From positions 1-64,000 of the forward strand of contig NZ_JAKZHX010000022.1 of NCBI RefSeq assembly GCF_022568815.1: 64,000 nucleotides of DNA, in the 5' to 3' direction. The translations under genes were made by a program, and so were the position numbers. Origin of the DNA: Undibacterium paludis. GTDB lineage: Bacteria; Pseudomonadota; Gammaproteobacteria; Burkholderiales; Burkholderiaceae_D. Numbering within the stretch: the first letter of the stretch is position 1; each line of letters begins with the position of its first letter. Of the stretch, positions 2,556-29,752 are shown piece by piece. The notes beneath the pieces were generated by a model, which saw only the letters and a program-made list of their open reading frames with translations, was not told the DNA's origin and searched no databases.

Positions 2556-2599
2556 GATCGCTGAGAAAACACTGCGGAAGGCTGTGTTCGGGATGTGGC

Positions 2600-4365: not shown

Positions 4366-4392
4366 GGGAACATCCTAGCCACGGTGGTTGGA

Positions 4393-4518
4393 CAAGTGCA
4401 AGTGTGCATTTTTCCAGTTTCCTGGCTAGGCGTGACGACGACGCAGACTAGCGTCTGCTAGGAGGAACAACGACGGCAGGGAGCTGGGAAAGTGTGCAAT
4501 TGCACTTGTAGCGCTCTC
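4393..4518. repeat. Imperfect inverted-repeat element between mmsA and acyl-CoA dehydrogenase
   Basis: The outer arms begin CAAGTGCAAGTGTGC and end GCAATTGCACTTG, and continue inward as TTTTTCCAG-type against CTGGGAAAG-type sequence. In the middle is a perfect hairpin, GCAGAC-TAGC-GTCTGC (4443-4458). It looks like a small non-coding dispersed element in the operon rather than a terminator, since no T-run follows. Other copies in the genome cannot be seen from here. Confidence 0.6.
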
Positions 4519-4611
4519 CGCACGGTCATACCTTATTGAAAGCGAACGATGGTAAATACACTACTTCAACTATTGACTGCCAAAGCGGTCAACTACCGGG
4601 GCTAGGATGAT

Positions 4612-5772: not shown

Positions 5773-6560
5773 GCAAGTACGCCAACTACACCAACCTGCA
5801 ATGCGAAATCATAGGCCACACCGCCCTGGTCACCATTGCCAACCCGCCTGCCAACACCTGGACCTCGGCGGGTTTACAATCGCTGACGCAACTGGTCAAT
5901 GATCTCAATGCCGATGCCAATATCTACAGCCTGGTCATCACAGGTTCAAGCCAGAAATTCTTTTCAGCAGGCGCAGATTTGAAGCTGTTTGCCGATGGCG
6001 ACAAGGCCGTGGCGCTCGACATGGCGCGCCGCTTTGGTGAAGCCTTTGAAACCCTGAGCCGCTTCCGTGGTGTCTCCATCGCTGCCATTAATGGCTATGC
6101 CATGGGCGGCGGTCTGGAATGCGCACTGGCCTGCGACCTGCGCATTGCCGAAACCCAGGCGCAACTGGCCCTGCCAGAAGCCGCCGTTGGCTTGCTGCCC
6201 TGCGCTGGCGGCACACAAAACCTTGCCTGGCTGGTCGGCGAAGGCTGGGCTAAGCGCCTGATTTTGTGTGGTGAACGCATCGATGCCGCCACGGCATTGC
6301 GCATAGGCCTGGTCGAAGAAGTCGTTGCCACCGGCGGTGCACTCGATCATGCACTGGCCCTGGCCAAACAGGTCGGCAAACAAAGCCCGACCAGCGTCAA
6401 GGCTTGCAAGCAACTGATACAGGGCGCACGCCATCAGCCGCTGAATACCGTCTTGCCACAAGAACGCGAAGCCTTTCTGGCGCTGTTTGATACAGCAGAT
6501 CAAAAAGAAGGTGTATCCGCCTTCCTGGAAAAACGTTCACCCGTGTGGAGTAATTCATGA
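5769..6560 (+). CDS. Enoyl-CoA hydratase (methacrylyl-CoA hydratase role)
   Basis: A crotonase-fold enzyme of 263 residues that should hydrate methacrylyl-CoA to 3-hydroxyisobutyryl-CoA. The oxyanion-hole segments are SAGADLKLFADGD and GYAMGGGLECALACDLRIA, and both catalytic acids appear to be present, in GGGLEC and in LALPEAAVGLLP. The start overlaps the upstream stop as ATGA, and its own stop overlaps the next start the same way, so three genes are tightly coupled. A general short-chain enoyl-CoA hydratase activity is equally possible from sequence alone. Confidence 0.92.
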   Translation: MSKYANYTNLQCEIIGHTALVTIANPPANTWTSAGLQSLTQLVNDLNADANIYSLVITGSSQKFFSAGADLKLFADGDKAVALDMARRFGEAFETLSRFRGVSIAAINGYAMGGGLECALACDLRIAETQAQLALPEAAVGLLPCAGGTQNLAWLVGEGWAKRLILCGERIDAATALRIGLVEEVVATGGALDHALALAKQVGKQSPTSVKACKQLIQGARHQPLNTVLPQEREAFLALFDTADQKEGVSAFLEKRSPVWSNS

Positions 6561-7750
6561 ACGCACCTACTCCCTCTTTCCTGTTCGAGACCCGGCCCAC
6601 TGCAGGCGGCATGCAGCTAGGCATCGCCACCCTCAATGCAGAAAAAACCCTGAACGCCCTCTCCAAAGACATGGTGCAATTGCTGGCTGCGCAATTGCAG
6701 GTATGGGATCAAGACGACAGCATCGCCCTGGTCGTCTTGCAGGCGGCCGGTGAAAAAGCATTCTGCGCCGGTGGCGACCTGCAAAACCTGTATGCCAGCA
6801 TGCGCGAGCATCATGCGTCGGACAAAAAAGATGATCTGCTCGGCAATGCCTATGCCCTCGATTTTTTTGAGCAGGAATACCGCCTCGATTACCAGATCCA
6901 CACTTACCGCAAACCCATACTGTGCTGGGGCCACGGCATCGTCATGGGAGGTGGCATAGGCTTGATGGCAGGCGCCAGCCACCGCGTCGTCACAGAAAAA
7001 TCCCGCCTGGCCATGCCTGAGATTGCGATTGGCCTCTTCCCCGACGTAGGCGGCACCTGGTTCCTGAATCGCATGCCGGGCAAGCTGGGTTTGTTTCTGG
7101 CATTGACGGGCGCGAACATCAATGCCAGTGATGCCGTATTTGTGAAGCTGGCCGACCTGCAATTGCCGCACGAGAGCAAGGCAGAACTGCTGGCACGCCT
7201 GCAAGCCTGTGCATGGAGCAAGCAGTCAGACAACAATCATCTGCGCCTGAGCCATATCCTGCATGAGCAGCAACGCAGTGCCAACGTAGTCGGCAGCGCC
7301 GGGCCATTACGCCAGCATTTTGACCTGATCAACCAACTGTGCAGCGCTGCTGACCTCGGTACGATAGTCAGCAATATCTGCCAGCTCGATGCAAGCGTCG
7401 TGAACGATGATGCATGGTTGCAAAAAGCCGTCACCAGCCTGCAAAAAGGTAGCCCGACATCTGCCTGGCTGGCGCATGCTTTGCAAGAACGCGGCAAGCA
7501 TTTGTCGCTGGCAGAAGTATTCCGTATGGAACTGGTGGCAGCGCTGGCCTGCGCGCAAGGGCATGATTTTGCGGAAGGCATACGGGCGCTGATTATCGAC
7601 AAGGACCAGAAGCCGCAATGGTTGCCGGGCAGCCTGGCGGAATTTGGGGTACAGGATGGTGCTGCCTACTTCAGCCAGCCATGGGCGGTGGGGCAGCATC
7701 CTTTGCGGGATTTGGGTGCGGTTGAGAATGTGCAAAAAAGAGCCGCATAA
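6557..7750 (+). CDS. 3-hydroxyisobutyryl-CoA hydrolase
   Basis: A crotonase-superfamily thioesterase of 397 residues, longer than hydratases because of the C-terminal ECH_2-type extension that marks this family. It should release 3-hydroxyisobutyrate from its CoA ester, keeping methacrylyl-CoA low. Visible segments are FCAGGDLQNLY, the GHGIVMGGGIGLMAGASHR oxyanion region, and RLAMPEIAIGLFPDVGGTW with the family's active-site acids. The ATG overlaps the upstream stop by four bases. The product is the substrate of MmsB, encoded next. Confidence 0.93.
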   Translation: MNAPTPSFLFETRPTAGGMQLGIATLNAEKTLNALSKDMVQLLAAQLQVWDQDDSIALVVLQAAGEKAFCAGGDLQNLYASMREHHASDKKDDLLGNAYALDFFEQEYRLDYQIHTYRKPILCWGHGIVMGGGIGLMAGASHRVVTEKSRLAMPEIAIGLFPDVGGTWFLNRMPGKLGLFLALTGANINASDAVFVKLADLQLPHESKAELLARLQACAWSKQSDNNHLRLSHILHEQQRSANVVGSAGPLRQHFDLINQLCSAADLGTIVSNICQLDASVVNDDAWLQKAVTSLQKGSPTSAWLAHALQERGKHLSLAEVFRMELVAALACAQGHDFAEGIRALIIDKDQKPQWLPGSLAEFGVQDGAAYFSQPWAVGQHPLRDLGAVENVQKRAA

Positions 7751-11693: not shown

Positions 11694-12278
11694 AATGATC
11701 TTAGCATCCGTGTATACCAGAGCAACATATTTTCAGGAATTACCGGCCAGTGAATTGCAAATCAAGGTGTCACCCGGCCTTGTCCCAGCGACAGTTAAAA
11801 ATTGCCCAGTGGAAAGCGATGCAAAAACGCGACAATGGCGCTGTGGCAGGATGTCATTGGAGGTTCTCAAAGCATGATTTGCGCGGACAGGATACCGGCC
11901 ACTGTACAGTTCACCAGCAAGCCGTTACGTCAAAACGATCCCGTCGGTGTCGGCCAGCCGGGATTTTTTGCATCGACCAAGCCTGCATATCAATGAACCA
12001 GATGCACCCAAAACCGTCATTCCCGCGTGCTTTTAGCGGGAATCCATGTTTGATCAGTCGCACAGACAGCAAGGCGGGCACGGTTGATCAAACATGGATA
12101 CCCGCCTGCGCGGGTATGACGAATTGGGAAGTACGGCAAGCCCAAGCTTTGGGGGCCGTATTGCGTAAGTCCTGTTGATGTATCCGTGAGTGCTGGTGCG
12201 CATGGCGCACCCTAGCAGCAGGAACAGATTACGGCAGATCACTATTCCAGGCAACAGGAGTGAGCACATCTCAACAAT
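11694..12278. other. Gene-free interval with dispersed repeats
   Basis: Open frames here are short and have no ribosome binding sites or family resemblance. The interval holds the inverted repeat at 12015-12121 and a small hairpin GGTGCGC-ATG-GCGCACC near 12198-12214. I see no convincing promoter or RNA gene. Confidence 0.6.
12015..12121. repeat. Inverted pair of CGTCATTCCCGCG-type repeats
   Basis: Each end carries a short hairpin of the widespread type TTCCCGCG...CGGGAATCCA or TACCCGCCTGCGCGGGTA. The inner arms ATCCATGTTTGATCA (12042-12056) and TGATCAAACATGGAT (12085-12099) are perfect complements. The whole 107 bp could fold into one long cruciform. Such units are typically scattered through intergenic DNA. 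Confidence 0.8.
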
Positions 12279-13154
12279 TCAGGAAAAACTGCCCAGGCTG
12301 TCATCCGTCAATATCGTTGCCGCCGCATCCGTACCCTGCTCCCGCAGAGACTGTACCTGATCAGACGCGCAGTCTGCAGCGGTATCCCTGGTGCGTGGTA
12401 CATCGTCACAATATGTGCTGTCGTCTGTCACATTGGCTGCGGTATCCGCGACAGCATCCAGGTCATTGATGCTACCCAGATATACCCAGGCGCGATGGTC
12501 GTCATACCTGTACGAGTAATAATCGTTGGTACTGACACTGTTTGAAGAATAGTCCGGTTCCGCCGTTGTTGCGCCGCCTTTCAGATAGCGCCTGGCCAGT
12601 TCGCGCGTCCTTGCCGCCAGTCGGGTGATGTCTTCTTGCAGGTCTGGCGGTATCACCGCTCCGCTGTCACGCAATCTTTCCAGCGACTGCAACAGGTTCT
12701 GGTTGGCAAAGCGCAGTTGCTCCGTTGCTTCTACCAGCTTACGGATAGCGGCAATCTCTTCATCAAGCACTTCAAATCCCTTGCCCTGGTGCCGCTCCAG
12801 GTAATAAGCGAGGCGCGTCTTCAGCACCACCAGCGCATGGCCGCTGCCAGAACGGGTGAACAGGCCCAGTATCTTGCGGTTTTCCCTGAAGGTTTCACGC
12901 ACCAGATCATCAACAAAACCAGGGCATTGCTGTTCCAGCGCCATCAGCGTCGTCGATGAAAAGTCCGGCAGCAGACTCTGCACCTGGCTGTCCACCAGCT
13001 GCCTGCGCTGGGCCTGGCGCGGTTCCAGCATTGCATTGCGTGCGGCAAGACTCTCCTTCATTGCCTGTATTGACAGCTTCAGGCCTGCAATGGCCACCTC
13101 AAGGTCTGACAGGTTGGGGTCTAGCAAGGCGGCATAATCGTAGTTTTCAGGCAT
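12279..13154 (-). CDS. Hypothetical protein with coiled coil, coupled to a glycosyltransferase
   Basis: A 291-residue protein starting at the ATG at 13154; longer open frame upstream runs inside the neighbouring gene. The ATG overlaps the upstream stop in the 8-base string ATGCCTGA, so the two genes are translated together. The first 210 residues are helical with heptad-like stretches (about 25-55 and 150-205). The last 80 are polar and rich in Asp, Ser, Thr and Tyr, probably disordered. No signal peptide or membrane segment. I recognise no family. Pairing with a glycosyltransferase suggests a role in surface glycan or glycoprotein work, but that is only context. Confidence 0.75.
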   Translation of the reverse strand: MPENYDYAALLDPNLSDLEVAIAGLKLSIQAMKESLAARNAMLEPRQAQRRQLVDSQVQSLLPDFSSTTLMALEQQCPGFVDDLVRETFRENRKILGLFTRSGSGHALVVLKTRLAYYLERHQGKGFEVLDEEIAAIRKLVEATEQLRFANQNLLQSLERLRDSGAVIPPDLQEDITRLAARTRELARRYLKGGATTAEPDYSSNSVSTNDYYSYRYDDHRAWVYLGSINDLDAVADTAANVTDDSTYCDDVPRTRDTAADCASDQVQSLREQGTDAAATILTDDSLGSFS

Positions 13155-14088
13155 AGCTGACTTTCTCTGTCTGGTCACCATCTTCACGGCGGGATTGGAA
13201 ATAATCGATAAAATACTGACGCAGGCCCGGCTTGCGCATATCGGCATGCCATGCCAGCGGCTGGCCTGGTTGACTGTGCAGATCAGTCCATGGGTTAAAG
13301 CCCAGATCGGTGATCTCATGCATGCGCAAGAAATAGCGACGGTGCTGCGCCTCGCCATGCCAGAGGTGACGGATTTCACCGCGCACCACACCCAGCCTGC
13401 CCTGCACCTGCTGATAAAAACGCTGGCCCCAGGCTTGCAGATGCCGTATCTGTGCGCGGTCATGCTTCAAGGCGTTCTGTATGCAAAAGTTATAGTCGCC
13501 ATAAATCGCATGCGCCATGAAATGATCAGCACTGCCAGAGATCGCCGCCTCATACAGGCCCACACTGTCAAACAGGCTGCGCCGCATGGCCCAACCATAA
13601 CCGGTATGACCATGCGTATCGTAACGCCCGCTGTCAAGCGACTGCGGCTGCGCCTGCATGGTGGCCGCAAACGACGTCACCCGGTCAGGCTGCGCCCCCA
13701 CACCGCCATCCTGCTGCAGGCGCAGGCAGCTTTGCCACACCTGCGCTATCGGGTACTGCTGCAATACCGCCACCAGCTCCCTCGCCCAATTGCGGTTATC
13801 AAAGACGATATCGCAATCGAGCCAGGCCACATACTTGCAATCCCCCGGCAACCACGACGCCGCCAGGTTCAGCAGCCGCTCTTTCTGCCACAGCAGCGTA
13901 TCAGAACGCACCTGCAAGACATCAAGCGCCGCTGGCAACTCAAACGCCGCATCACCAAACGCACACTCCACCGTGATGCAGTTCACCCCGGCCAAACGCA
14001 TCCCCCGCATGAAGACATCATAATTCTGCCGCCGCGTGGCATAGCGGCAGGGGTTGAAGTAAGTGGTGAGGACGACGAGTTCAGACAT
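13147..14088 (-). CDS. Glycosyltransferase-like protein, GT-A fold
   Basis: A 313-residue soluble protein. The N-terminal VVLTTYFNP strand and the WLDCDIVF segment (Asp91 and Asp93, a DxD-type nucleotide-sugar/metal site) mark a GT-A fold glycosyltransferase. HGHTGYGWAMRRSLFDSVGLYE and the RHLWHGEAQHRRY region fit the acceptor half seen in uncharacterised family 2-like enzymes. Donor and acceptor cannot be told. It shares eight bases with the next gene downstream. The divergent interval upstream (14089-14345) is without clear promoter marks. Confidence 0.75.
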   Translation of the reverse strand: MSELVVLTTYFNPCRYATRRQNYDVFMRGMRLAGVNCITVECAFGDAAFELPAALDVLQVRSDTLLWQKERLLNLAASWLPGDCKYVAWLDCDIVFDNRNWARELVAVLQQYPIAQVWQSCLRLQQDGGVGAQPDRVTSFAATMQAQPQSLDSGRYDTHGHTGYGWAMRRSLFDSVGLYEAAISGSADHFMAHAIYGDYNFCIQNALKHDRAQIRHLQAWGQRFYQQVQGRLGVVRGEIRHLWHGEAQHRRYFLRMHEITDLGFNPWTDLHSQPGQPLAWHADMRKPGLRQYFIDYFQSRREDGDQTEKVSYA

Positions 14089-14345
14089 GGAAACAAGTCA
14101 GACGGCTAGTTGAACAAACCGCGATCATAGCAAGCTTTGCGGGTGCCGTCGTCTTGATTTAAACTCAGTATTTCATTTCTTTGAAGTCATTTCTTTGAAG
14201 ATGCACCTGTTTCAGGCAACACTTGAATGGTCTTAAGGACAAGCTGCCGCCATCACCGTCAACACTACCCATATCGTCAGGCAGGAATACCCCTCAGCCG
14301 CCTGACGACACGTCCCTCTGAAGTTTGTCCGCAGTGTGTCGGATT

Positions 14346-14553: not shown

Positions 14554-15891
14554 TCAATTCTTGTACTCGCCCGGTTTGGGAGAACTGTTTCGCAAGGATT
14601 CGGAAACGCTGACCAGCATACGGCTCGATGGCAGGTCATCGCCCATCAGCAGGCGTTTTGGCGACGGCGATGCGGGGTCGTCAGGCTTCGCGTCTGATGT
14701 TGTTGCCTGCTTCAACTTGAGACCGCCGCCTGCCATGTCCTCGAAAGACTGTTTTGACACGGATGTGCTGCGCTGGGATGATTCGAGCCTCTCCAGATTC
14801 ATCGCATCCGGTTTCATCGCCATGAGTTCGGCACGGTAAGCGACCGGCTTATCTGGATGATCGATTTTCGCATTCGCCACCGGATTCAACAGCTTGGGCG
14901 TGTTGTTGCCGTCACTGGTGTCGACATAAGAGAAGGCTTTATGGTCGGCAAACTTGACATTCTGCTTGATCAGGTCCTCCTTCAAACCGATCTGTTTCAT
15001 GTCAAAATGGACTTCAGGTGCAGCGTATTTTTTGTCGGTTTTTTGATAAAAATCCTGATACGCTTTCTCGCGGTCGCCTGCGACATTCATCGCCCAGCTA
15101 CCGTAGTAGTTGGTGTAATCGAGATTGCCATGTGCTCCAAGCCTGGAGACGTCTGGAGCCTTGTTAAAGTAATATTCACCCATCGCGGCGACATTGTCCT
15201 TCGAGTAAGGCATGGTCATGTCGGCATTGAGCGTCAGGCCCGGTTTCATCGTATAGGTATAATTCGCGGCGTCGCCGGTTACGGTGATGAAATCATCCAT
15301 GCGTCCTGGGGCGGTTTTGTAGATGTCCTTGAGTGTCGCGTCGGGGTTCGCTTTTTTGGCTTGCGAGACTATCGCATTGAAGCCGCCGATATGGGCGGAC
15401 GCCTCGTCTTTACGTGACGCCTCGATAAAATCCCCAGTCAGCTTGGTATAGTCGTGCGGCCCCGCCTTGTTCTTTGCCACAGTCTCGACGCCGTCAAGGA
15501 AATCCTTTGTCGTTTTCTTGGTCTCCGCAGCATTGAAGGAATGCTGGATTTCATGTCCCATCACAAAAACCAGCTCGCCCTTTTTCTGTGCTTTCGTGTT
15601 GGCTTCCTTGAGCACGTCCATCGGTAAATTGATGGCTTTTGCGCCAGATTCATACGAACCACCCATGCCGGAATTGGGCGGCAGTGCCTTGAAATTGGTC
15701 AAAAAACCTTTATCGACCGAGTCGAGGATGCGCTTCTTCAAATCGGGCGAGTCGTCCAGGATTTTACGCAAATCCTCGCCAGGATTATTATCCGCAGTCT
15801 TATTGGTATCACCAAATTTCTTGAGGATTTTATCGAGCTTTTCTTCAGGAGTCGGCGGTACGGCCTTGGCTTTGTTGTCTGGTAATGGCAT
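14554..15891 (-). CDS. HExxH zinc metallopeptidase, candidate secreted effector
   Basis: A 445-residue protein with the zinc motif HEIQH (113-117) in VFVMGHEIQHSFN, and a likely third ligand Glu163 in KDEASAHIGGFNA, the gluzincin layout. There is no Sec signal. The N-terminus is lysine-rich and polar and the C-terminal 100 residues look unstructured, as in effectors exported by contact-dependent machines. Its first eight residues (MPLPDNK-x-K) match those of the next gene upstream, a lipoprotein. GAGG lies seven bases before the ATG, and only 12 bases separate it from that lipoprotein gene. Two tandem lipoproteins upstream suggest immunity to a periplasmic, perhaps cell-wall, target. The target and export route are inference. 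Confidence 0.72.
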   Translation of the reverse strand: MPLPDNKAKAVPPTPEEKLDKILKKFGDTNKTADNNPGEDLRKILDDSPDLKKRILDSVDKGFLTNFKALPPNSGMGGSYESGAKAINLPMDVLKEANTKAQKKGELVFVMGHEIQHSFNAAETKKTTKDFLDGVETVAKNKAGPHDYTKLTGDFIEASRKDEASAHIGGFNAIVSQAKKANPDATLKDIYKTAPGRMDDFITVTGDAANYTYTMKPGLTLNADMTMPYSKDNVAAMGEYYFNKAPDVSRLGAHGNLDYTNYYGSWAMNVAGDREKAYQDFYQKTDKKYAAPEVHFDMKQIGLKEDLIKQNVKFADHKAFSYVDTSDGNNTPKLLNPVANAKIDHPDKPVAYRAELMAMKPDAMNLERLESSQRSTSVSKQSFEDMAGGGLKLKQATTSDAKPDDPASPSPKRLLMGDDLPSSRMLVSVSESLRNSSPKPGEYKN

Positions 15892-15903
15892 AAATCGCCT
15901 CTC

Positions 15904-16644
15904 TTAGATGTCGATGACTATCATGGAGACGCAATCGTGGTTCACCTTGTCTCTGTTTTCACCACGAATGGAAATCTGGAGCGAGACTTTGCCACGCGTG
16001 AAATACCAGTAAATGAGCCGGTTGTGTTCGCCATAGTAAGGTCTGGCCTGAAAACCTAGTTCCGTCAACCGTTTTGAATAGGCATCAAAATCGACTTGGC
16101 AAATCGGCGTCATACTGGCGGAACTGTGGGTCTGATCGTCGAACGAAAATATAAGATTGCTGGGTTCGCCTTCTTTGACGCCCGCAGTCACCATGATTCT
16201 AACGGACCAGGTATCGGTAATTTTTGCACCCGCTGCATATTCGTTTGGATTTTTCGAGTCCACATACACCTTCAGACCTGTTGCAATTTCCAAATTTTTT
16301 GCTGAAATATCGTCAGGTGTTTTGAGATTGCCGATCAGATCAAGCATGCGGTGGCTGATTTCTTCGGCAGTCATCCGGGGAGCGGCAGGCGTTGTGTTGT
16401 TCTGTGTGGTTTCCATAAGCGGCTTGTTGGCATGAGAAGTGGAAGAAGAGGCCGTATCCGAAGAGTGCTGCGCCGGTACATCATGGCTTTGCGCGCAGGC
16501 AGTCGTCAATACCGTCAATAGCAGCGACGACAAGACCATGCGGATAGCGTTGCTACTGCGACGCTTGATGCAGCGACTGAGCGGCTCCACGTTTGAGAAA
16601 GTGGAAGATGATGCAGTCTTGCGTTTGTTGTCTGGTAAAGGCAT
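15904..16644 (-). CDS. Lipoprotein, candidate immunity protein (copy 1)
   Basis: A 246-residue protein with a lipoprotein signal ending in VLTTAC (Cys50). The signal is unusual in having about 35 residues before its hydrophobic core, starting with MPLPDNK-R-K as in the neighbouring metallopeptidase. The mature part has a Ser/Thr-rich linker and a compact domain (about 85-246) with two cysteines near FSFDDQTHSSASMTPICQVDF and CVSMIVID. It is a paralogue of the gene directly upstream, sharing most residues. GAGG lies eight bases from the ATG, and it is 12 bases from the genes on both sides. Immunity is inferred from the operon, not from a known family. Confidence 0.7.
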   Translation of the reverse strand: MPLPDNKRKTASSSTFSNVEPLSRCIKRRSSNAIRMVLSSLLLTVLTTACAQSHDVPAQHSSDTASSSTSHANKPLMETTQNNTTPAAPRMTAEEISHRMLDLIGNLKTPDDISAKNLEIATGLKVYVDSKNPNEYAAGAKITDTWSVRIMVTAGVKEGEPSNLIFSFDDQTHSSASMTPICQVDFDAYSKRLTELGFQARPYYGEHNRLIYWYFTRGKVSLQISIRGENRDKVNHDCVSMIVIDI

Positions 16645-16656
16645 AGAGTTTTCCTC

Positions 16657-17376
16657 TTAAATACTGAGGTCTATCGAAGAGACGCACTTGTGAGTCGCCT
16701 TTTCGCTGTTTTCACCGCGAATGTACATGAGGAAATTAACCTTATCTCGCGAAAATCTCCAGTAAATTTGGCGGCCATGTTCGCCATAGCCAGGTTTGGA
16801 TTCAAAGCCGAGTTCCGTCAGCCGTTTCGCATAGGCGTCAAAATCGACTTGGCAGATTTCCGTCATACTGGCGGAACTATGAGTCTGGTCATCGAACGAG
16901 AATAGCAGGCGGCTTCGTTCGCCTTCTTTAACACCCAAGATAACCGTAACGTTAAAGAACCAGGTATCGGTAATTTTTGCACCTGTCCCATATTCATTGG
17001 CATTTTTTTCATCCCGGTAAACCTTGAGGCCGAAGGCGGCTTCCAGGTTTTTGAAAGAAATATCGTCAGGTGTTTTGAGTTTGCCAATCAGATCGAGGAT
17101 GCGATGGCTGGCTTCCTCAGCACTCATGTGCGGTATAACGCGCGTTGTGTTGTTCTGAGTGGTTTCCATAAGCAGCTTGTTGGCATGAGAGGTAGAAGAT
17201 GAGGCCGTATCCGAAGGGTGCTGCGCCGGTAAATCATGGCTTTGCGCGCAGGCAGTCGTCAGTACCGTCAATAGCAGCGACGACAAGACCATACGGATAG
17301 CACTGCTATTGCGACGCCTGAGCGGCCCTGCGTTTGGGAAAGTGGGAGATGATGCGGCAATTTTTTTTGATGGCAC
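16657..17376 (-). CDS. Lipoprotein, candidate immunity protein (copy 2)
   Basis: A 239-residue paralogue of the previous gene, first in the operon. It starts at a GTG at 17376 with AAAGGA upstream. Lipobox VLTTAC at Cys43 follows a basic segment RRRNSSAIR. The domain from about 78 on repeats the same blocks: ILDLIGKLKTPDDISFKNLE, KITDTW, FSFDDQTHSSASMTEICQVDFDAY. DNA identity with copy 1 is highest over the signal-peptide region (about 16395-16600 against 17155-17330), which points to recent tandem duplication, while the C-terminal halves differ more. Two diverged immunity genes beside one toxin suggest cover against more than one toxin variant; this is inference. Confidence 0.7.
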   Translation of the reverse strand: MPSKKIAASSPTFPNAGPLRRRNSSAIRMVLSSLLLTVLTTACAQSHDLPAQHPSDTASSSTSHANKLLMETTQNNTTRVIPHMSAEEASHRILDLIGKLKTPDDISFKNLEAAFGLKVYRDEKNANEYGTGAKITDTWFFNVTVILGVKEGERSRLLFSFDDQTHSSASMTEICQVDFDAYAKRLTELGFESKPGYGEHGRQIYWRFSRDKVNFLMYIRGENSEKATHKCVSSIDLSI

Positions 17377-18512: not shown

Positions 18513-18688
18513 TTTTTCATTCTTTGTTGATTTTCAAAAACTGCCGCCTGCATTGCACACCAGCACCGTTCGTCATCAAGTAGCCAAAAGCAAGGTGATA
18601 TTGCAAGTGAATACCCAATGGTGATACTTAATTCGACAATAGCATTAAAATAATAACAATTGTTTTATATCAAGTTTTTTGCACTAAT

Positions 18689-18717
18689 TTACAAAAAGTG
18701 TTTTCTTGCAATATAAT
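18689..18717 (+). promoter_or_regulatory. Sigma-70 promoter of the RHS operon
   Basis: TTACAA (18689-18694) and TATAAT (18712-18717) are 17 bases apart in an AT-rich stretch (18595-18720). The predicted transcript start, near 18724, lies after the first possible start codon of the long open frame, so it supports the later ATG at 18841. Confidence 0.6.
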
Positions 18718-18840: not shown

Positions 18841-21054
18841 ATGATTTTAAATAAACGCGTCCCCCCCAAGAGACTGTTACGCAAAATACCCTATTTTTTC
18901 CTGGCGTTTGCTTCGTTTCAACAATCTGCAATGGCAGATACTCAGGCCAAATCGCCCATTCCTGCTACACATAAGATCGTTGCCTGGACTGGAGTGACTG
19001 GAAGAACTAGCTCTCCGGGAGAAACTTGTGCCCAATATCAAGCAATAAACACTGCGGCGTCACCCATTTGGGGTTGGCGTCTCTCTCGAGTAATACCAAA
19101 TGCAGGCAGCCGTCCAGATGCTGAGGTCTATGATTGTTATTACAAATATACCTATACTGACGGTCATACAGCTGAAGTGGCATTCATCTCTACGGAAGCA
19201 ATTTATGAATGGCGCTGCTCAAGCCCTTATACCCTGGCCGGCAATCAATGTGTTCTTCCACCCAAGAAAGAGCAGTGCCCAAAAACAAACGCAGGTAATC
19301 CAATTGACTTTTCGACAGGAACAAAAGAACAGGCAGAGACTGATTATAAAAGTGTTGATGGCGAACTGGAATTTGTACGCTACTACCGCAGTGACAGCGT
19401 AACGCAAAACGTCGGCAATACAACTGTCACAGTACCAGCTCCCGGTTTTGGCTGGCAGCATAATTTCCATCGGGCTCTGGTCTTGCATACGGCAGCCCCG
19501 GTCGTAACGATATCCCGTCATAACGGCACAGTCTATGCGTTTACCTTGTCCAATGGCGTCTGGACGGGGGACGCTGACGACAATGCCAGATTACAGCAAC
19601 TGACTGATGCTGACGGCAAACTGACTGGCTGGGTCTATACCTCATCCATGAACTATACCGAGACCTATGACGCCGATGGCCGTCTGACGTCAGTAAAAAC
19701 CCGCGCCGGCGCCCTGCAAACATTGACCTATGACGACACAACCAAATTGCTGACGCGTGTAGTTGATTCATTTGGCCGACAGTTGCAGTTTGCTTATGAC
19801 GACCAGTCACGCCTCAAGCAATTGACCACGCCAGATAGCAGAACTTACACCTATGCCTACGACACCAATGGCAACCTGGCGTCGGTAACCTACCCTGACA
19901 CCAAGACCCGTAGCTATGTCTATGAAAACGCCAGCTTCCCCCATGCATTGACAGGGATCATTGACGAAAACGGCGCCCGCTTTGCCACCTGGAAGTACGA
20001 TACACAAGGTCGGGGTTTCTCAAGCGAACATGCCGCTGGCATTGATAAGTACACCATCGACTACAGTGTTGGCGCCTATGGCAGAAACGTCACTGATCCG
20101 CTTGGTGCAACGAGGTCTTATACACTTTCACCACTGCTCGATACGGTTAAAATTCTTTACATCAATCAGCCCGGTGGTTCTGGCTGCAATGCTTCATTCA
20201 GCGGGCTCACTTATGATGGCAACGGCAATATAAAAAGCGGGACTGATTTCAACGGCAATGCAACGAACTATACCTATGACCTGACACGCAACCTGGAGAC
20301 CAAACGTGTTATCGCCAATGGCACTGCCCAGGCGCAAACCGTGTCGACCATCTGGCATCCGACACTGAATATACCAACTCAGGTCAATGAACCTTTGTTG
20401 CGAACTACGTATACTCATGACACCAACGGCAATATCCTGACAAAAACCTTGCAGGCAACCAGCGATGCAGATGGTAGCCAGGGTGCCAATGCCAGCCCTG
20501 TTGGCAGCCCCCGTGTCTGGACTTATACCTACAATAATCTGGGGCAAGTGCTGACTTTTACAGGCCCACGTACTGACGTGGTCAATAAAATGACCAACAC
20601 TTACGATGCACAGGGCAACCTGATCAGTACGAGTAATGGCGCTGGTCACGTGACAACGCTGACAAATTATGATGCCAATGGCAGACCAGGCCAGACCACC
20701 GACCCGAATGGTGTCGTCACCACATACACTTACACAGAGCGCGGCTGGTTAAAACAACGCGTCGTCACCGCGGGCGGTATATCTGAAACCACAACCTATG
20801 ATTATGACGGTGTAGGCCAGATGACCAAGGTGACACTGCCAGACAACAGCAGCATTAATTACACCTATGACGACGCCCACAGGCTCACAAAAGTCAGTGA
20901 CAGCCTGGGCAACAGTATCAACTACACCCTCGACAACATCGGCAACCGCATTAACGAAACCGTGACAGATGGTGGCGGCAATCTGAAACGCCAGGTCACC
21001 CGTATCTATGACGCGCTGAACCGTCTGCAACAAGTCACAGGGGCAGCACAATGA
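18841..21054 (+). CDS. Secreted RHS/YD-repeat protein, N-terminal component
   Basis: A 737-residue protein with a Sec signal peptide (basic RVPPKRLLRK, hydrophobic IPYFFLAFASF, cleavage near AMA-D). The first part (about 35-145) is Cys-containing and unrecognised. A DUF6531-type start, CPKTNAGNPIDFSTGTKEQ, follows, and then YD repeats run to the end (patterns such as YTYDLTRNL, YDANGRPGQTTDPNG, YDYDGVGQMTKV). It ends without the RHS core motif or a toxin tip, as if the shell were cut short and continued in the next gene. Start 18841 is chosen for the signal peptide and the promoter position. Its TGA overlaps the next ATG by four bases. Confidence 0.85.
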   Translation: MILNKRVPPKRLLRKIPYFFLAFASFQQSAMADTQAKSPIPATHKIVAWTGVTGRTSSPGETCAQYQAINTAASPIWGWRLSRVIPNAGSRPDAEVYDCYYKYTYTDGHTAEVAFISTEAIYEWRCSSPYTLAGNQCVLPPKKEQCPKTNAGNPIDFSTGTKEQAETDYKSVDGELEFVRYYRSDSVTQNVGNTTVTVPAPGFGWQHNFHRALVLHTAAPVVTISRHNGTVYAFTLSNGVWTGDADDNARLQQLTDADGKLTGWVYTSSMNYTETYDADGRLTSVKTRAGALQTLTYDDTTKLLTRVVDSFGRQLQFAYDDQSRLKQLTTPDSRTYTYAYDTNGNLASVTYPDTKTRSYVYENASFPHALTGIIDENGARFATWKYDTQGRGFSSEHAAGIDKYTIDYSVGAYGRNVTDPLGATRSYTLSPLLDTVKILYINQPGGSGCNASFSGLTYDGNGNIKSGTDFNGNATNYTYDLTRNLETKRVIANGTAQAQTVSTIWHPTLNIPTQVNEPLLRTTYTHDTNGNILTKTLQATSDADGSQGANASPVGSPRVWTYTYNNLGQVLTFTGPRTDVVNKMTNTYDAQGNLISTSNGAGHVTTLTNYDANGRPGQTTDPNGVVTTYTYTERGWLKQRVVTAGGISETTTYDYDGVGQMTKVTLPDNSSINYTYDDAHRLTKVSDSLGNSINYTLDNIGNRINETVTDGGGNLKRQVTRIYDALNRLQQVTGAAQ

Positions 21055-22472
21055 ACTATTCTATGAAACAGACATTCCGCAACACCCTGCTGGCCGTGGC
21101 CATCACTGCCCTGTTTGCCCAGGCACAAGCACAATCGACTGTGTACCAATATGAATATGATGCGGGTGGAAATCTCACCAAAATCACCAACGGCAATAAT
21201 GCCGTCACGCGCCAAAAGTACGATGCGCTAAACCGCCTGCAAACACAGACAGACGCCAATAACCAGGTCACCAGTTTTGAGTACGATGGCCAAAACCACC
21301 TCACCAAAGTGACGGATGCACGCAACCTGAGCACTCTTTACACAGTGGACGGTCTTGGCAATCAGCTCGGTTTGAATAGTCCCGACACCGGTGTGACCAC
21401 AACAACGGTAGACGCCGCTGGCAATGTATTGACTAAAACCGATGCCAAAGGCCAGACCACCAGCTATGCCTATGATGTGATTGACCGCATCATCCGTATC
21501 AGCTATAGCGATGGCAATGTCGCCACTTACACCTATGACCAGGGTGCCAACGCCAAAGGCCGGCTGACACAGATCAGCGACAACAATGGCAGCATCGCTT
21601 ACACCTATGATGAACGTGGCCGCATCCTGACAGAGACGCGCACCATCGCTGGCACAAACAACGTGACAGCCTACCAGTATGACAATGCAGGCCGCCTGAG
21701 CAAGCTCACCTACCCCAATGGCCGCCAGATCAGCTACACCCGCGATGCCTTGGGCCGCATTACCCAGATCGACACCAGCAAAGACGGTATTACAACGACC
21801 ATCCTGAGCCAGGCTACCTATCGCCCGTTTGGCAGCATACAAAGCTATCGCAATAGTGCCGGCCAAACCAATAGTCGTGGCTTCGACAATGAAGAACGTA
21901 TCGCCAGCTTCACGCTCAATGACAAGGTGCAAGCCGTCACCTATGATGCTGCCAGCCGTATCACAGCGATTAATGAAACCAATAACCCTGCCCGTCAGGC
22001 AGGCTATGGCTATGACAACCTGGACCGTCTGACCAGCTACACGACACCGCAAACCAGCCAGAGCTTCACGTATGACGCTGTCGGCAACCGCAATACCAAA
22101 ACCAATGGCGCGGCCAACACCAGCTATACCTATGCCGCCAACAGCAACCGCCTGACCCAGGTCAGCGACAGCCAGAGCACGGCTATCGCCATGGACGCCA
22201 ACGGCAGCACGACCAATAACGGCAAGGCGCAATTCAACTATGACGCCCGTGGCCGCATGGTTTCCGTCGTAACCAGCATAGGCACGGTGCAGTACCTGAT
22301 TAACGCCCTGGGCCAGCGCGTACAAAAGAGCGTGCCCGCCAATGGCGGCAACCCGGCGACCAGTACCATCTACCACTACGACCTGAATGGGAAAATCATC
22401 AGTGAGCGCAGCGGACAAAATGGCGTGGATTATATCTACCTCGATAACCTGCTGGTCGCCGTGATCAAGTAA
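21051..22472 (+). CDS. Secreted RHS/YD-repeat protein, middle component
   Basis: A 473-residue protein with its own Sec signal (MKQTFRNTLLAVAITALFAQAQA, two codons in). The rest is YD repeats from residue 28 on, for example YQYEYDAGGNLTKITNG, YDALNRLQTQTDANN and YDYDNAGRL-type units, ending in YHYDLNGKIISERSGQNGVDYIYLDNLLVAVIK, the segment that normally runs straight into the RHS core. No core motif or tip is present. It overlaps the upstream gene by four bases. A single RHS shell split between separately exported chains is the simplest reading. Confidence 0.85.
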   Translation: MNYSMKQTFRNTLLAVAITALFAQAQAQSTVYQYEYDAGGNLTKITNGNNAVTRQKYDALNRLQTQTDANNQVTSFEYDGQNHLTKVTDARNLSTLYTVDGLGNQLGLNSPDTGVTTTTVDAAGNVLTKTDAKGQTTSYAYDVIDRIIRISYSDGNVATYTYDQGANAKGRLTQISDNNGSIAYTYDERGRILTETRTIAGTNNVTAYQYDNAGRLSKLTYPNGRQISYTRDALGRITQIDTSKDGITTTILSQATYRPFGSIQSYRNSAGQTNSRGFDNEERIASFTLNDKVQAVTYDAASRITAINETNNPARQAGYGYDNLDRLTSYTTPQTSQSFTYDAVGNRNTKTNGAANTSYTYAANSNRLTQVSDSQSTAIAMDANGSTTNNGKAQFNYDARGRMVSVVTSIGTVQYLINALGQRVQKSVPANGGNPATSTIYHYDLNGKIISERSGQNGVDYIYLDNLLVAVIK

Positions 22473-22555
22473 GTCTGCATTCAAAGCACACAGACAAAAC
22501 ACGGATTAAACCCATTACGAAAACCGCCATCAGATCACCCACGAGAGCAGGTCTG

Positions 22556-24940
22556 ATGGCAAGGGAGAGAAATTTGTTTCAACCAAGATCAAACATCATC
22601 GCGACCAGCGTCGCCCTGATCTGCCTGACTGGCCTCGCCATCAGCAGCCCGGCCTTCGCCGTCGCACCCACAGTCAGTTTGACCGCACCGGCAGCCAATG
22701 CCCGCTATGGCGCACCGGCAGCCATTACCCTGACAGCCAGCGCCGTTAACAGCGGCGACACCATCAGCAAGGTCGAGTTCTACCAGGGCGCGACCCTGAT
22801 TGGTACCGTCACCAGCGCACCGTATACCTACAACTGGAGCAATGTCGCGACAGGTAGCTACAGCCTCACCGCCAAAGCCACCAACAGCCATAATGAAAGC
22901 AAGACTTCGGCTGCTGTTGCCGTTGTCGTCAACAATGCCCCGACAGTCAGCCTCACCGCCCCGGCTGCCAATACCAGTGTGGCTGGCAAAGCCAGCATCA
23001 CCATCACCGCCAATGCCAGCGATGCCGACGGCAGCATCAGCAAAGTCGAGTTCTACAATGGCGCCACCCTGCTGGGCAGCGACACCACTGCACCGTACAG
23101 CTATAGCTGGACCAATGTCGCACCAGGCACGTACAGCATCACCGCCAAGGCGACTGACAACCTCAGCGGCACAACGACCAGCAGCCCGGTCAGCGTCACG
23201 GTCACTAACCCGATCACGGTCAACCTGACTGCACCGGCCAATAATGCCAGTGTGACAGTGGGCACACCGATTGCCATCACAGCGACAGCGGCAGACAGCA
23301 AGGGCAGCATCTCAAAGGTTGAGTTCTACAATGGCACCACCTTACTGGGCAGTGCAACCGCCAGCCCCTACAGCTACAACTGGACCAATGCAGCAGTGGG
23401 CACTTATAGCCTTACCGCCAAAGTGACTGACAGCCAGAGCCTGACGCAGACCAGTACGGCTGTCAGTGTGCAGGTCAAGGCGGCAGCAACGACACCGCCC
23501 ACCGTCAACCTAACACCCGCAGTCAAACAAGGCACACAGACTGCACCAGCCAATGGCAGTTTCGTTGCCCCGGCAGGCATCAGCCTGACAGCGACAGCCA
23601 CGCCGGCATCCGGCAGTACGATTAGCAAGGTGGAGTTTTACCAGGGTGCAACGCTGATCGGCACCGCCACCGCACCAACGATAGCGAACGGCAACAACTA
23701 CAGCGTCAACTGGAACAATGTCACTGCCAACAGCTACAGCATCACTGCCAAGGCAACCGACAACAAAAACGCCACGGCCACCACCGCGCCAGTCACGGTC
23801 AACGTCATCAACAACACGCCGCCAACAGTAAGCCTGACAGCCAATCCTGCCAACGCTACCGCACCGGCAACCATCATCTTGAATGCCACTGCGGCAGACA
23901 GCGATGGCACGATCACGCAGGTAGAATTTTTGAATGGCACGAACAGTATTGCAACAGTTACACAGGCACCGTATACCAGCAACTGGGCGAATGTGACACA
24001 GGGCAATTACAGCCTGACGGCCAAGGCCACAGACAACCTGGGGGCAACCACGACCTCAGCAGTTGTGCCGGTGATAGTGGCAGCATACCAACCCAAAGTG
24101 TATGACGTTAGTAACGACCAATTGGGTACACCACGTGTCGTCACTGATAGCACAGGAACTGAAGTATGGCGCTGGGATTCAGCCCCGTTTGGGGAAACAC
24201 TTGCGAATGAGCAACCTGCGAGTCAGCAAACCAGGTTCAACTTTAACATGCGTTTTCCGGGGCAATATTTTGATCAAGAGACCAATCTGCACTATAACTA
24301 CTTTAGAGATTACGATCCGCAGGCAGGCAGGTATGTCCAAAGTGACCCCATTGGGTTGAGGGGTGGAATAAATACCTATGCATACGTTAGCGGAGATCCT
24401 GTCACTAAAGTCGACCCGAGAGGACTACAAGATGGCCCAGGAATTCGCACTTACTTAAGACCTGATATGCTGCGACAAGAGGAAAAAGAGATAGAACAGA
24501 GTAAGCAGGGTAAGCAATGTAAGTGTAAAAAACCAGAATTCGGCGGGTACGCACAGGGCGGAGTTGGTGCATCTGGTCATTTCGTTATGGCAGGTGCAAG
24601 CGCAAGTTATAGTGCAGCAATTAGTACAAGTGGTCAAATTTGCAAAATCAAAACCATTTGTGTCAGGATTGGACCTGGAATGTACGCTGGTGCCGGTGGT
24701 AGTGTGGGTGCCGGAGCAGTAATGGGCGATACCGACTCTTTGGGTGGACTAAGTATTGGAGTAGGAGCAGACATAGGATTTGGTGTATCTGTAGGTGGGC
24801 AAGCTACTGTTGGATTCAATAAAGATTGGAGTGTAAGCTCGGCAGGTGGCGCCAAAGGAAAGGGCGGCGGCGGGTACGGTGTTAATATTGGCGTAGATTT
24901 TTGTTATTCATTTCCAGTTTGCCAGGAATGCAAAGAATGA
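22556..24940 (+). CDS. Ig-like repeats fused to RHS core and variable tip, candidate polymorphic toxin
   Basis: A 794-residue protein. A signal peptide (cleavage near AFA-V, about residue 36) precedes five bacterial Ig-like domains of about 90 residues each (about 38-510), recognised by repeated SKVEFY-x-G-x-T-L-x-G and YSLTAKATDN segments. Next is the RHS-associated core (about 515-625): DQLGTPRVVTDSTG, RFPGQYFDQETNLHYNYFRDYDPQAGRYVQSDPIGL, closed by VDPRGL near residue 620. The last 170 residues are variable: a CKCKKPEF motif and long glycine-rich stretches with four Cys near the end. Base composition shifts to lower GC from about 24100. The tip matches no toxin family I know. The stop overlaps the next start by four bases. 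Confidence 0.85.
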   Translation: MARERNLFQPRSNIIATSVALICLTGLAISSPAFAVAPTVSLTAPAANARYGAPAAITLTASAVNSGDTISKVEFYQGATLIGTVTSAPYTYNWSNVATGSYSLTAKATNSHNESKTSAAVAVVVNNAPTVSLTAPAANTSVAGKASITITANASDADGSISKVEFYNGATLLGSDTTAPYSYSWTNVAPGTYSITAKATDNLSGTTTSSPVSVTVTNPITVNLTAPANNASVTVGTPIAITATAADSKGSISKVEFYNGTTLLGSATASPYSYNWTNAAVGTYSLTAKVTDSQSLTQTSTAVSVQVKAAATTPPTVNLTPAVKQGTQTAPANGSFVAPAGISLTATATPASGSTISKVEFYQGATLIGTATAPTIANGNNYSVNWNNVTANSYSITAKATDNKNATATTAPVTVNVINNTPPTVSLTANPANATAPATIILNATAADSDGTITQVEFLNGTNSIATVTQAPYTSNWANVTQGNYSLTAKATDNLGATTTSAVVPVIVAAYQPKVYDVSNDQLGTPRVVTDSTGTEVWRWDSAPFGETLANEQPASQQTRFNFNMRFPGQYFDQETNLHYNYFRDYDPQAGRYVQSDPIGLRGGINTYAYVSGDPVTKVDPRGLQDGPGIRTYLRPDMLRQEEKEIEQSKQGKQCKCKKPEFGGYAQGGVGASGHFVMAGASASYSAAISTSGQICKIKTICVRIGPGMYAGAGGSVGAGAVMGDTDSLGGLSIGVGADIGFGVSVGGQATVGFNKDWSVSSAGGAKGKGGGGYGVNIGVDFCYSFPVCQECKE

Positions 24941-25161
24941 AAGCACATTGGCGCGGTACAATTTTAATTTTGATTTGCTTATTAGGATACAACATAGTGT
25001 CAGATAATGACATTTTCAGTGACTACGACACTCGACAGATTTTTCTCTGTTTGTTTGTACTCGGAGCAATAGCTGGTGGAGTAGTATCAGTCGTTGATTC
25101 AATAGCTGAGATGCGATCACACAAGCGTCGCAATGACACGGATAAAGATGACTCCAACTAA
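24937..25161 (+). CDS. Two-helix membrane protein, candidate immunity protein
   Basis: A 74-residue protein starting at the ATG that overlaps the RHS stop as ATGA. Two hydrophobic helices (about 7-21 GTILILICLLGYNIV and 36-56 IFLCLFVLGAIAGGVVSVV) are joined by an acidic loop, and the tail is charged (RSHKRRNDTDKDDSN). Position directly after a variable RHS tip is where cognate immunity genes are found, and an inner-membrane immunity protein would fit a tip that acts on membranes. I recognise no family. Confidence 0.65.
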   Translation: MKAHWRGTILILICLLGYNIVSDNDIFSDYDTRQIFLCLFVLGAIAGGVVSVVDSIAEMRSHKRRNDTDKDDSN

Positions 25162-25250
25162 AGTCCGATTGCTGTAAAAGCATTGAGCTTTGTTGTTGTT
25201 TTAATTTTGGAAAGCGTCAAATAGCTTTGTACTGAAATGCTTTCAATTTA

Positions 25251-25288
25251 AGCCACTCGTACCCTGTCGGATACGAGTGGCTTTTTAT
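25251..25288 (+). terminator. Rho-independent terminator of the RHS operon
   Basis: A perfect 11-bp stem, AGCCACTCGTA (25251-25261) with TACGAGTGGCT (25272-25282), is followed by a T-run ending near 25286. It closes the four-gene RHS transcript. Confidence 0.92.
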
Positions 25289-25377
25289 TGTGCGTCATGC
25301 CAGTTGATCCCGACACCTCACACACGAGCAGTATCAGATACAGCGTCGTCAACACCACCCGTGTTTGTTGTTACCTG

Positions 25378-28261: not shown

Positions 28262-29752
28262 TCACCCCTGCCACAGCTTGAATTCTATGCCGTTCTGTAT
28301 CGTGCCGATCACCTGTGCCTGGTTTTCGGTACTTTCACAGAAGCTGGCCAGTGCGCCCGCTGCGGTGATTTTGCCTGTGCTTAATTGATTGTTCCAGTAA
28401 TCAAAACCGGCCTGGTCAGGTGCGCGGTGCAATACGTTTTGATAGAAGTTGGTGATCAGGGTCGTGGTCGATGGATTGGCGCCATACAGCTTCTGGAATT
28501 CTGGTGACTGGAAGAAACCGGCCGCCACGGTGGTCAGGCTGGAGCCTTTATCCATGTCCTTGATCCAGTAACCAAGACCTTCGAGATCAGGCTTGCGGCC
28601 AAAGGCTGCCTGGTACAGGCGGTAGGCCTGGCCAGCGGTGCCATTGATATCCAGGGCGACGCTCTTGTCGGCAAATTGCAGGCGCTCTACATTGACCAGG
28701 CTGTCGACGTCGCCGCTGGCGTTGACGCGCACCTGATAGCCGCCACCTGTCTTGCTGACGTTAAACCCGGCTGCAACGCCGTTGAAAATGGCGGTATCCA
28801 TGCCGGTGCCGCCGTCAATATTGTGGTTGCCCGTGCCAACATTGATCGCGTCATTACCGCTGCCGGCGTTGACGTGCAGGCGGCCACCGCCGCCGTTGAT
28901 GGTGATCAGGTCTGCCCCGGCGCCAGAGGCGATCAGGTAGTCTGAATACAAGGTCGACGGCAAATCGACATTGATGACATCGGCGTCGCCAAACAGTGAT
29001 TCATTGGCCAGCAGCTTTTCATCGATGACCTGGTTGGCGGCTATCGGTGCAGATACACCGCTGATGCGCATATAGCTGCCATCGCGGTATTCGGTGGAGG
29101 TGGCTGTCATCGTGCCGGTCACGACTGACTTGGACAGGCCCTGGCCTATCGACAGAGTGTTGCCAGACAAGCTGAAGTTACCATCTATGCTGCTGGAAGT
29201 CATGAACTTGTCTGCCGTCGTCGAAATACGGGTGACGGTGCCGCTGCTGTTGCCGCTGGTATCCCCCTTGATGGACCCCTGCACGGTGATCGCCACGTTA
29301 CCGACAACCGGGTCATAGGACGGGCTGTTGGTCGGCAACAGAGTAGAGACAAAAAAGCTCGATGCCTGTACACCGGTACTGTTGATGGACAAGGTGTTGT
29401 TGCCGCTGATGCTGTAGTCAAAGCTGAAACGGCCTGTCTCGGTGATGGACATGAAGCCGTTCTTGTACATCTGCACGCTGGTCGCGGTGGCAGAACCTTG
29501 CGTGGCGTTCGGGTTATCCAGCACCACGCCGTTATAGATCATCGTGGCGCCATCAGGAAAGCCGAACTGCACCCGGCTGCCGCTGAAGTCAAACGAGGAA
29601 TAATACTGGTGATCTTTGGACCAGGCCGCACCGAGCTTGGCAAAGGCATCAAACAAGCTGCCCAGTGAACCATTAGTGGGGGGATTTTTTTGTGCGCTCT
29701 GGTAATTGGTGTTGATGACGTTTTGTGACTGTTTGATATTGATGGTTGCCAT
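28262..29752 (-). CDS. RTX-like calcium-binding protein with C-terminal DUF4214
   Basis: A 496-residue protein without a Sec signal. The first 270 residues are Ser/Thr/Asn/Gly-rich beta structure. RTX-type glycine-aspartate repeats follow (ADLITINGGGGRLHVNAGSGND and HNIDGGTGMDTAIF, about 280-330), then a DUF4214 domain (about 375-470: AYRLYQAAFGRKPDLEGLGYW, FFQSPEFQKLYG, FYQNVLHRAPDQAGFDYW). DUF4214 with RTX repeats is typical of proteins exported by type I systems and of surface-layer or adhesive proteins. A second such protein lies at 55791-57530 with the domains in the opposite order. No type I secretion genes are in this window. Confidence 0.82.
   Translation of the reverse strand: MATINIKQSQNVINTNYQSAQKNPPTNGSLGSLFDAFAKLGAAWSKDHQYYSSFDFSGSRVQFGFPDGATMIYNGVVLDNPNATQGSATATSVQMYKNGFMSITETGRFSFDYSISGNNTLSINSTGVQASSFFVSTLLPTNSPSYDPVVGNVAITVQGSIKGDTSGNSSGTVTRISTTADKFMTSSSIDGNFSLSGNTLSIGQGLSKSVVTGTMTATSTEYRDGSYMRISGVSAPIAANQVIDEKLLANESLFGDADVINVDLPSTLYSDYLIASGAGADLITINGGGGRLHVNAGSGNDAINVGTGNHNIDGGTGMDTAIFNGVAAGFNVSKTGGGYQVRVNASGDVDSLVNVERLQFADKSVALDINGTAGQAYRLYQAAFGRKPDLEGLGYWIKDMDKGSSLTTVAAGFFQSPEFQKLYGANPSTTTLITNFYQNVLHRAPDQAGFDYWNNQLSTGKITAAGALASFCESTENQAQVIGTIQNGIEFKLWQG

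Follow-up and report, generated by a model that had tools for sequence, protein, structure and literature searches.

Within the window, a 64,000-nucleotide stretch of the Undibacterium paludis genome (contig NZ_JAKZHX010000022.1, positions 1 to 64,000), four genes lie head to tail on the forward strand between positions 18841 and 25161. They code for three large chains, referred to here as chains 1, 2, and 3, and for a small membrane protein. To judge from its sequence, the set probably encodes a polymorphic toxin of the RHS type, with a closed shell that is divided among three chains, each exported on its own by the Sec pathway. The evidence consists of the gene order, the tiling of the chains on one shell, the placement of the cuts between YD repeats, the signal-like segments, the conservation of the split, and purifying selection. 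Together the chains cover one RHS shell, with the N-terminal plug (N-plug) and the first YD part on chain 1, YD repeats only on chain 2, and the immunoglobulin (Ig)-like domains, the C-terminal plug (C-plug), the protease, and the tip on chain 3.

Overall architecture of the gene set

Chain 1 (18841-21054, 737 amino acids (aa)) begins with a signal-like segment (~18841-18936) and an N-terminal part of ~120 residues, which are followed by the DUF6531 N-plug (19294-19542) and the first YD part. Pfam places DUF6531 at residues 152-234 together with eight RHS_repeat stretches. Chain 2 (21051-22472, 473 aa) consists of a signal-like segment (~21051-21131) and the second YD part, characterized by 11 RHS_repeat stretches with no other convincing Pfam match and no core. 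In chain 3 (22574-24940) the signal-like segment extends to ~22660 and leads into an arm of five Big_7 Ig-like domains (22664-24076; PF17957, five stretches, E 1.4e-76), the RHS core or C-plug (24089-24427), and a variable tip, the predicted cargo (24428-24937). The tip is 170 residues long and Gly/Ala-rich, with seven Cys counted by eye. Neither DUF6531 nor RHS_repeat was matched in chain 3 by Pfam, and the NCBIfam model Rhs_assc_core covers residues 544-624 with 86.9 bits. The last gene (24937-25161) encodes a small membrane protein of 74 aa and is a candidate immunity gene. This domain layout, from DUF6531 plus YD repeats through YD repeats only to five Ig-like domains with core and tip, had been proposed in a sequence-only reading of the same DNA, and the Pfam and NCBIfam searches agree with it.

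Both aspartates of the autoprotease motif, D597 and D620 (P0003 numbering), are present in the window core (DPIGL...PVTKVDPRGL) and lie 23 residues apart. Both are likewise retained in all 20 of the Ig-plus-core open reading frames (ORFs) that have a full-length core, eight by strict motif match and 12 by eye. The set displays the features of an RHS/YD polymorphic toxin, namely YD repeats forming a shell, a two-aspartate core, and a variable tip, with orphan cassettes in relatives. In place of the usual single continuous RHS chain, however, there are three ORFs.

As described in the sequence-only reading, the three ORFs are adjacent, and by eye each has a signal-peptide-like start, with cleavage after SAMA, AQAQA, and PAFA in chains 1, 2, and 3, respectively. 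Chain 1 appears signal-like when read from ATG 18841; with the upstream TTG start of the ORF caller it was not scored so by the heuristic script. By eye and by that script, the chains bear signal-peptide-like starts of the Sec type, as type II secretion substrates do. The two ATGA overlaps previously noted among the three junctions are found at 21051 (chain 1/chain 2) and 24937 (chain 3/small gene). The gap between chains 2 and 3 measures 83 bp from ATG 22556 and 101 bp from TTG 22574. The latter is probably the true start, because it is preceded by the Shine-Dalgarno-like AAGGGAGAG and the nearest relative likewise starts at a TTG.

Tiling of the three chains on one RHS shell

When aligned to a single-chain relative of 1533 aa (L049), residues 142-735 of chain 1 fall on 177-787, residues 17-473 of chain 2 on 777-1241, and the core of chain 3 (residues 514-623) on 1250-1360. 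Chains 1 and 2 align in the same order on two further single-chain proteins, L045 and L050, and the cores of these come next, at 1248-1356 and 1302-1409, respectively. On the solved structure of RhsA (7q97), chain 2 occupies 737-1166 and the core 1180-1289. The best match of chain 1, 696-809, overlaps that of chain 2, which we ascribe to the repeats.

Both cuts are positioned between YD hairpins. At the first, chain 1 ends after YDALNRLQQVTGAAQ and the YD part of chain 2 opens with VYQYEYDAGGNLT. At the second, chain 2 ends after LLVAVIK (PVAVIK-like in relatives), and at this point the single chains examined continue into the core, mostly within 1-12 residues. In Tse5, the N-plug corresponds to DUF6531, and the C-plug, which is also the aspartyl protease, to the DPxG...DPxG region (PMC10684867); the plugs and protease of RHS proteins have been likewise described elsewhere (PMC8765631, PMC8636562). 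On the basis of the tiling, the Tse5 plug assignments, and the aspartates of the window core, the N-plug, the middle of the shell, and the C-plug with its cargo are assigned to three separate chains.

Structure prediction was confined to monomers and two-sequence alignments. The nearest solved structures to the chain 2 model are RHS shells, and the model follows the TcC chain of YenBC, which suggests that the first cut corresponds roughly to that between TcB and TcC.

Conservation of the split

The survey covered 60 relatives and a search of 392 genomes of the family, with ORFs scored at chosen loci. The search for the same gene order, which the sequence-only reading had recommended, yielded 20 three-gene loci, spread over 13 genomes and four genera, and all chains are whole in 14 of them. 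Chain 1 is in two ORFs in L036, partial in L164, and missed by the ORF filter in L153; chain 3 is in two pieces in L149 and cut by the contig end in L161. In L159, chain 2 was missed by the ORF filter but matched in the genome search, and chain 3 is again cut by the contig end. There are also 28 two-gene loci, in which only the first cut is present and chain 2 is fused to the core without an Ig arm. Chain 1 was seen beside chain 2 in 26 of these (not in L167 or L186). Single-chain forms exist as well, and 23 were read; L201 was relabelled from two-gene to single-chain.

A four-base ATGA overlap joins chains 1 and 2 in 35 of the 44 loci with both genes identified, a count for which there is no matched control. 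A signal-like segment directly precedes the YD part of chain 2 in 18/20 three-gene and 27/28 two-gene loci and in none of the 23 single-chain loci, and the same heuristic scored 43 of 2000 random internal segments. Signal-like starts were scored in this manner for 20 of 24 Ig-plus-core ORFs and for 48 of 58 ORFs holding chain 1. Note that for the segment count before chain 2, and for the tree described below, L154 replaces L159 among the 20 three-gene rows, and L156 and L159 were left out; chain 2 of L154 ends without a core, and its contig stops before chain 3.

Purifying selection acts on chains 1 and 2 and on the Ig part of chain 3. The ratios of nonsynonymous to synonymous substitution rates (dN/dS) relative to the nearest relative, L035, are 0.25, 0.14, and 0.09, respectively; for the core and tip the ratio was not computable. 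In a tree of 71 chain 2 segments, the three-gene rows belong to a single supported group of 23 (98/97), in which three two-gene rows are found as well. The gene-number label changes three times on this tree. These changes fit one gain and two reversions, the direction being a reading, as the root was not inferred.

The Ig arm, the tip, and the small downstream gene

The number of Ig copies adjoining the core ranges from 1 to 10 across the loci scored. Only two are present in L036-L040 and L042, six of the eight Undibacterium relatives scanned, and there the first ~350 residues of chain 3 form a different stretch with no Pfam match; that of L042 has no convincing relative in the PDB. The sequence-only reading had taken the arm to replace the usual delivery module. 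That proposal was not borne out: the arm is variable, it is placed at the C-plug/protease end, and it is absent from the 28 two-gene loci. Indeed, the secretion mode of RHS effectors is specified by the region ahead of the N-plug (PMC8636562), and this end corresponds here to chain 1, which argues against the arm as a delivery substitute.

L149 and L040 contain orphan Ig-plus-core cassettes that lack signal-like starts, and thus the Ig repeats may also serve as a recombination sequence for cassette exchange. In L149 (G322; 2810-7334 and 11784-14185), the orphan cassettes comprise Ig domains, core, and tip, and genes that are transposase-like by eye separate them from the main set.

The window tip has no match to a Pfam toxin family. 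In a search of 294 genomes, the only relative of the tip beyond U. paludis itself was a weak one, carried by an orphan cassette in G322 (L149), with 42% identity over 57 residues. Among five relatives the tips are 22-39% identical versus 60-72% for the cores, a pattern that points to replacement of the tips between loci. A Pfam scan of nine tips identified one as DUF4329, which is listed as the toxin Tox-JAB-2 by Zhang et al. (PMC3482391).

Small genes directly follow the tip in most loci. The product of that in the window contains a strong hydrophobic stretch, with a 17-residue mean of 2.58 as measured on a longer ORF of 86 aa. Elsewhere in the U. paludis genome, the RHS core genes at L052 (G000:C29) and L053 (G000:C11) neighbor very similar 98-aa proteins (MTIYWNKTSIPALKGL...), which are possibly repeated immunity genes.

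Probable secretion route

In Pfam, chain 1 has no match to PAAR or to another N-terminal module of the type VI secretion system (T6SS). The T6SS sheath protein TssC was not matched in the U. paludis genome, which is rated 100% complete. It was matched in three of nine split-RHS genomes tested, with no match in five of the eight others besides U. paludis, and all nine contain a canonical GspD above the cut-off.

In Undibacterium hunanense (G004, L054) a cluster resembling a type II secretion system (T2SS) runs straight into the three-gene set. The cluster includes gspG, gspF, gspE, one PilO-like and one weakly PilN-like gene, and a cohesin-domain secretin; two more of its proteins have the pilin methylation motif, and a third is pseudopilin-like by eye. 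A similar cluster runs into the two-gene set of G047 (L055). The three-gene sets of G332 and G156 are divergent from gspG at distances of ~200 and ~240 bp, and in G009 a gene resembling chain 1 comes after the cluster, where the contig ends. Of 19 genomes having both (U. paludis and 18 of the 60 relatives), eight show the cluster adjacent to a YD gene, with 1.6 expected by random placement (P ~1e-5). The chance value per locus was computed for an assumed 1.5 clusters in each genome and a target of 23 kb. The adjacency flags were entered by hand, G010 being counted via a long ORF and G009 via its chain 1 match.

The U. paludis genome itself has such a cluster on another contig (L085:2968-12164, G000:C5), with no adjoining RHS gene. 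Its secretin is 75% identical to the cohesin-bearing secretin of U. hunanense (P0005); a third pseudopilin was not detected in this cluster. From the adjacency excess and the lack of a TssC match, release by some machine of the T2SS type is likely.

Giant proteins lie directly beside T2SS-like clusters at L086:13414-20000 (G032:C12) and L101:1858-11556 (G031:C30). One has matches to CarboxypepD_reg, a teneurin TTR-like domain, and FG-GAP, and the other to SpvB and RHS. The cluster may thus serve several teneurin/Tc-like proteins.

Proposed assembly of the cage and alternative explanations

The exported pieces most likely assemble into one cage outside the cytoplasm. Assembly beyond the inner membrane had been suggested in the sequence-only reading, and this portion of it stands, apart from the delivery role given to the Ig arm: the split is real and conserved, and the separate signal-peptide-like segments place any assembly after the inner membrane. 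The chains would line up next to one another, in the periplasm or beyond it, held by the hairpin contacts that single-chain RHS proteins and TcB/TcC also use. The tip would be enclosed within the shell and cut off by the aspartyl protease of the C-plug, and the Ig arm would point outward from the C-plug end and bind to surfaces. The producer may be protected by the small membrane protein. The assembled particle would leave via the type II secretion machine and, in some relatives, perhaps via the adjoining T2SS-like cluster. A more far-reaching interpretation is possible but doubtful, namely a three-piece self-assembling cage that closes only outside the cytoplasm, carries a length-variable, target-binding Ig arm, and is secreted by a type II/type IV-pilus-like machine dedicated to it. 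Such a machine would comprise gspG-gspF-gspE, pilN/pilO-like genes, the cohesin-domain secretin, and pseudopilins, and the toxin would constitute an export class separate from those of the T6SS, the type VII secretion system, and Tc toxins.

Several observations weigh against the main reading, in which three exported chains form one cage released by a type II machine. The monomer models are poor, with predicted local distance difference test (pLDDT) scores of 59 for chain 2 and 43 for chain 1. No T2SS-like cluster lies beside the window set, and cluster genes occur in the fetched stretch of only 4 of the 48 split loci, with none in the 23 single-chain loci (in L176 and L180, weak matches to a single pilin gene were disregarded). 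The cluster often occurs without RHS genes. Furthermore, it cannot be obligatory, since G012 (three-gene) and G005 (two-gene) have no match to the cohesin-bearing secretin at E<=1e-20. The window tip has no match to a known toxin, and the downstream genes follow no membrane or periplasm rule; the hydrophobicity cut is reached by 8/16 in three-gene and 7/23 in two-gene loci and by 104 of 253 background ORFs.

Four other explanations were considered. The split could represent gene decay, a frameshift, or an assembly error, and the sequence-only reading had named continuous relatives as the sign of such errors. Single-chain relatives do exist, and chain 1 of L036 and chain 3 of L149 are each found in two ORFs. 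Against these stand the 20 three-gene loci (14 of them whole) and 28 two-gene loci, the signal-like segments at the same cut, the frequent ATGA overlap, and the low dN/dS values. For the window set, decay or error is refuted by this conservation and retains virtually no probability. Delivery by the T6SS, as for most known RHS effectors, is highly improbable. Most rhs genes have been reported in T6SS or hcp-vgrG clusters (PMC8636562), but chain 1 lacks a PAAR match, all chains carry signal-like segments, and TssC was not matched in the genome and was matched in just three of the nine split-RHS genomes tested.

The two remaining explanations retain somewhat more weight. It is unlikely, on balance, that the shell of chains 1 and 2 stays open and no joint cage forms, chain 3 being an independent surface adhesin or toxin linked to the core by ancestry only. 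Chain 3 does have its own signal-like segment and a variable arm, and orphan Ig-plus-core cassettes are found apart from the shell. In two-gene relatives, however, chain 2 runs directly into the core with no arm between them, such fused forms recur within the three-gene set of the tree, and the protease aspartates of the core are retained. No use is known for a plug without a shell. Quite unlikely as well is an adhesive or structural surface particle that is not a toxin. The Ig array is related to modules of secreted carbohydrate-active enzymes (the NCBIfam match being weak), and the tip offers no toxin match and, among 294 genomes, just one weak relative beyond its own. Yet tips are exchanged while cores are kept, one tip is the DUF4329/Tox-JAB-2 domain, and small genes directly follow the tip in most loci. 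Polymorphic toxins typically have orphan cassettes and a release protease.

Comparison with known systems

A split RHS shell has a precedent in TcB/TcC of the Tc toxins, which form a two-chain shell (PMC11067744). The solved RHS shells met in the comparison are either single chains or this two-chain form, and pairs such as YenB/YenC and TcdB2/TccC3 provide a mechanistic precedent for a multi-chain shell. Unlike TcB/TcC, the window set has three chains, Sec-type signals, and an Ig arm on the C-plug chain. SpvB and a β-propeller are features of the Tc toxin B chain; neither was matched by Pfam in chain 1 at E<=1.

With the T6SS RHS effectors RhsA, Rhs1, and Tse5, the set shares the DUF6531 N-plug, the YD barrel, the two-aspartate C-plug, and the variable tip. 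Indeed, the Tse5 aspartates D1141 and D1164 show the same spacing of 23 as in the window core (PMC10684867). Those effectors are single chains with an N-terminal T6SS module, whereas the window encodes three exported chains in a genome with no TssC match.

Bacterial teneurin-like proteins combine signal-bearing RHS/YD regions with adhesion domains and a toxic C-terminus (PMC13018210), and the window set similarly joins signal-bearing RHS/YD chains to additional, putatively adhesive domains. The former are single chains with TTR, FN-plug, and TIP domains, whereas the window set is split. In the Pfam scan of the window chains, the teneurin TEN_YD-shell model reached 17.3 bits against a cut-off of 50, and TTR was not matched.

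The survey of Zhang et al. from 2012 includes Sec/T2SS among the routes taken by RHS toxins and notes that bacterial Ig domains are occasionally found beside an inactive transglutaminase domain behind the signal peptide (PMC3482391). In the excerpt of that survey, a split shell, an Ig insertion ahead of the core, and a dedicated secretion cluster are not described. A search of the open-access literature found no description of a split Sec-exported RHS shell.

Expression signals and other features of the window

A promoter-like site, TTTACA-18-TATAAT (18688-18717, forward strand), lies upstream of chain 1 and agrees with 11 of 12 consensus positions. It is a consensus match only and counts as weak evidence, since the window holds eight such sites versus a mean of 6.3 in shuffles. 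An intrinsic terminator (25250-25290, forward strand), consisting of an inverted repeat and a T-rich tail, closes the set. The sequence-only reading had called it perfect, and as read its 12-bp stem has no mismatch and carries a 10-nt loop; its 15-nt arms, 25250-25264 and 25269-25283, are 93% complementary. The 25250-25283 hairpin was not listed by the automatic terminator scan, which admits loops of 3-8 only.

Elsewhere in the window, a cobalamin riboswitch (RF00174, 86.5 bits) at 2329-2568 on the forward strand lies just before, and overlaps, a 603-aa ORF (2554-4365). Three tandem genes on the reverse strand (14554-17376), two of which share the start MPLPDNK, have no Pfam match. The first (445 aa) contains by eye a metalloprotease-like HEIQH motif, and the next two are mutually similar and exported-looking. 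These genes could be a second toxin/immunity group. Additional features include a 496-aa protein with DUF4214 (28262-29752, reverse strand), a 1174-aa protein whose N-terminal part has a patatin-like match (49003-52527, forward strand), and an ORF with a long Asn-Cys dipeptide run, a simple DNA repeat (60160-60663).

Implications

If the proposed assembly is correct, separate parts can be joined into an RHS shell outside the cytoplasm, and export does not require a toxin that is already caged. Mixing purified pieces would then open shell assembly, plug docking, and the timing of the autoprotease to testing, and a three-piece toxin would offer a new way to study the build-up and release of RHS cages. 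The single-, two-, and three-gene relatives within one bacterial family provide natural fused controls. Finally, the adjacency statistics make the T2SS-like cluster a concrete candidate exporter for RHS proteins in Burkholderiales.

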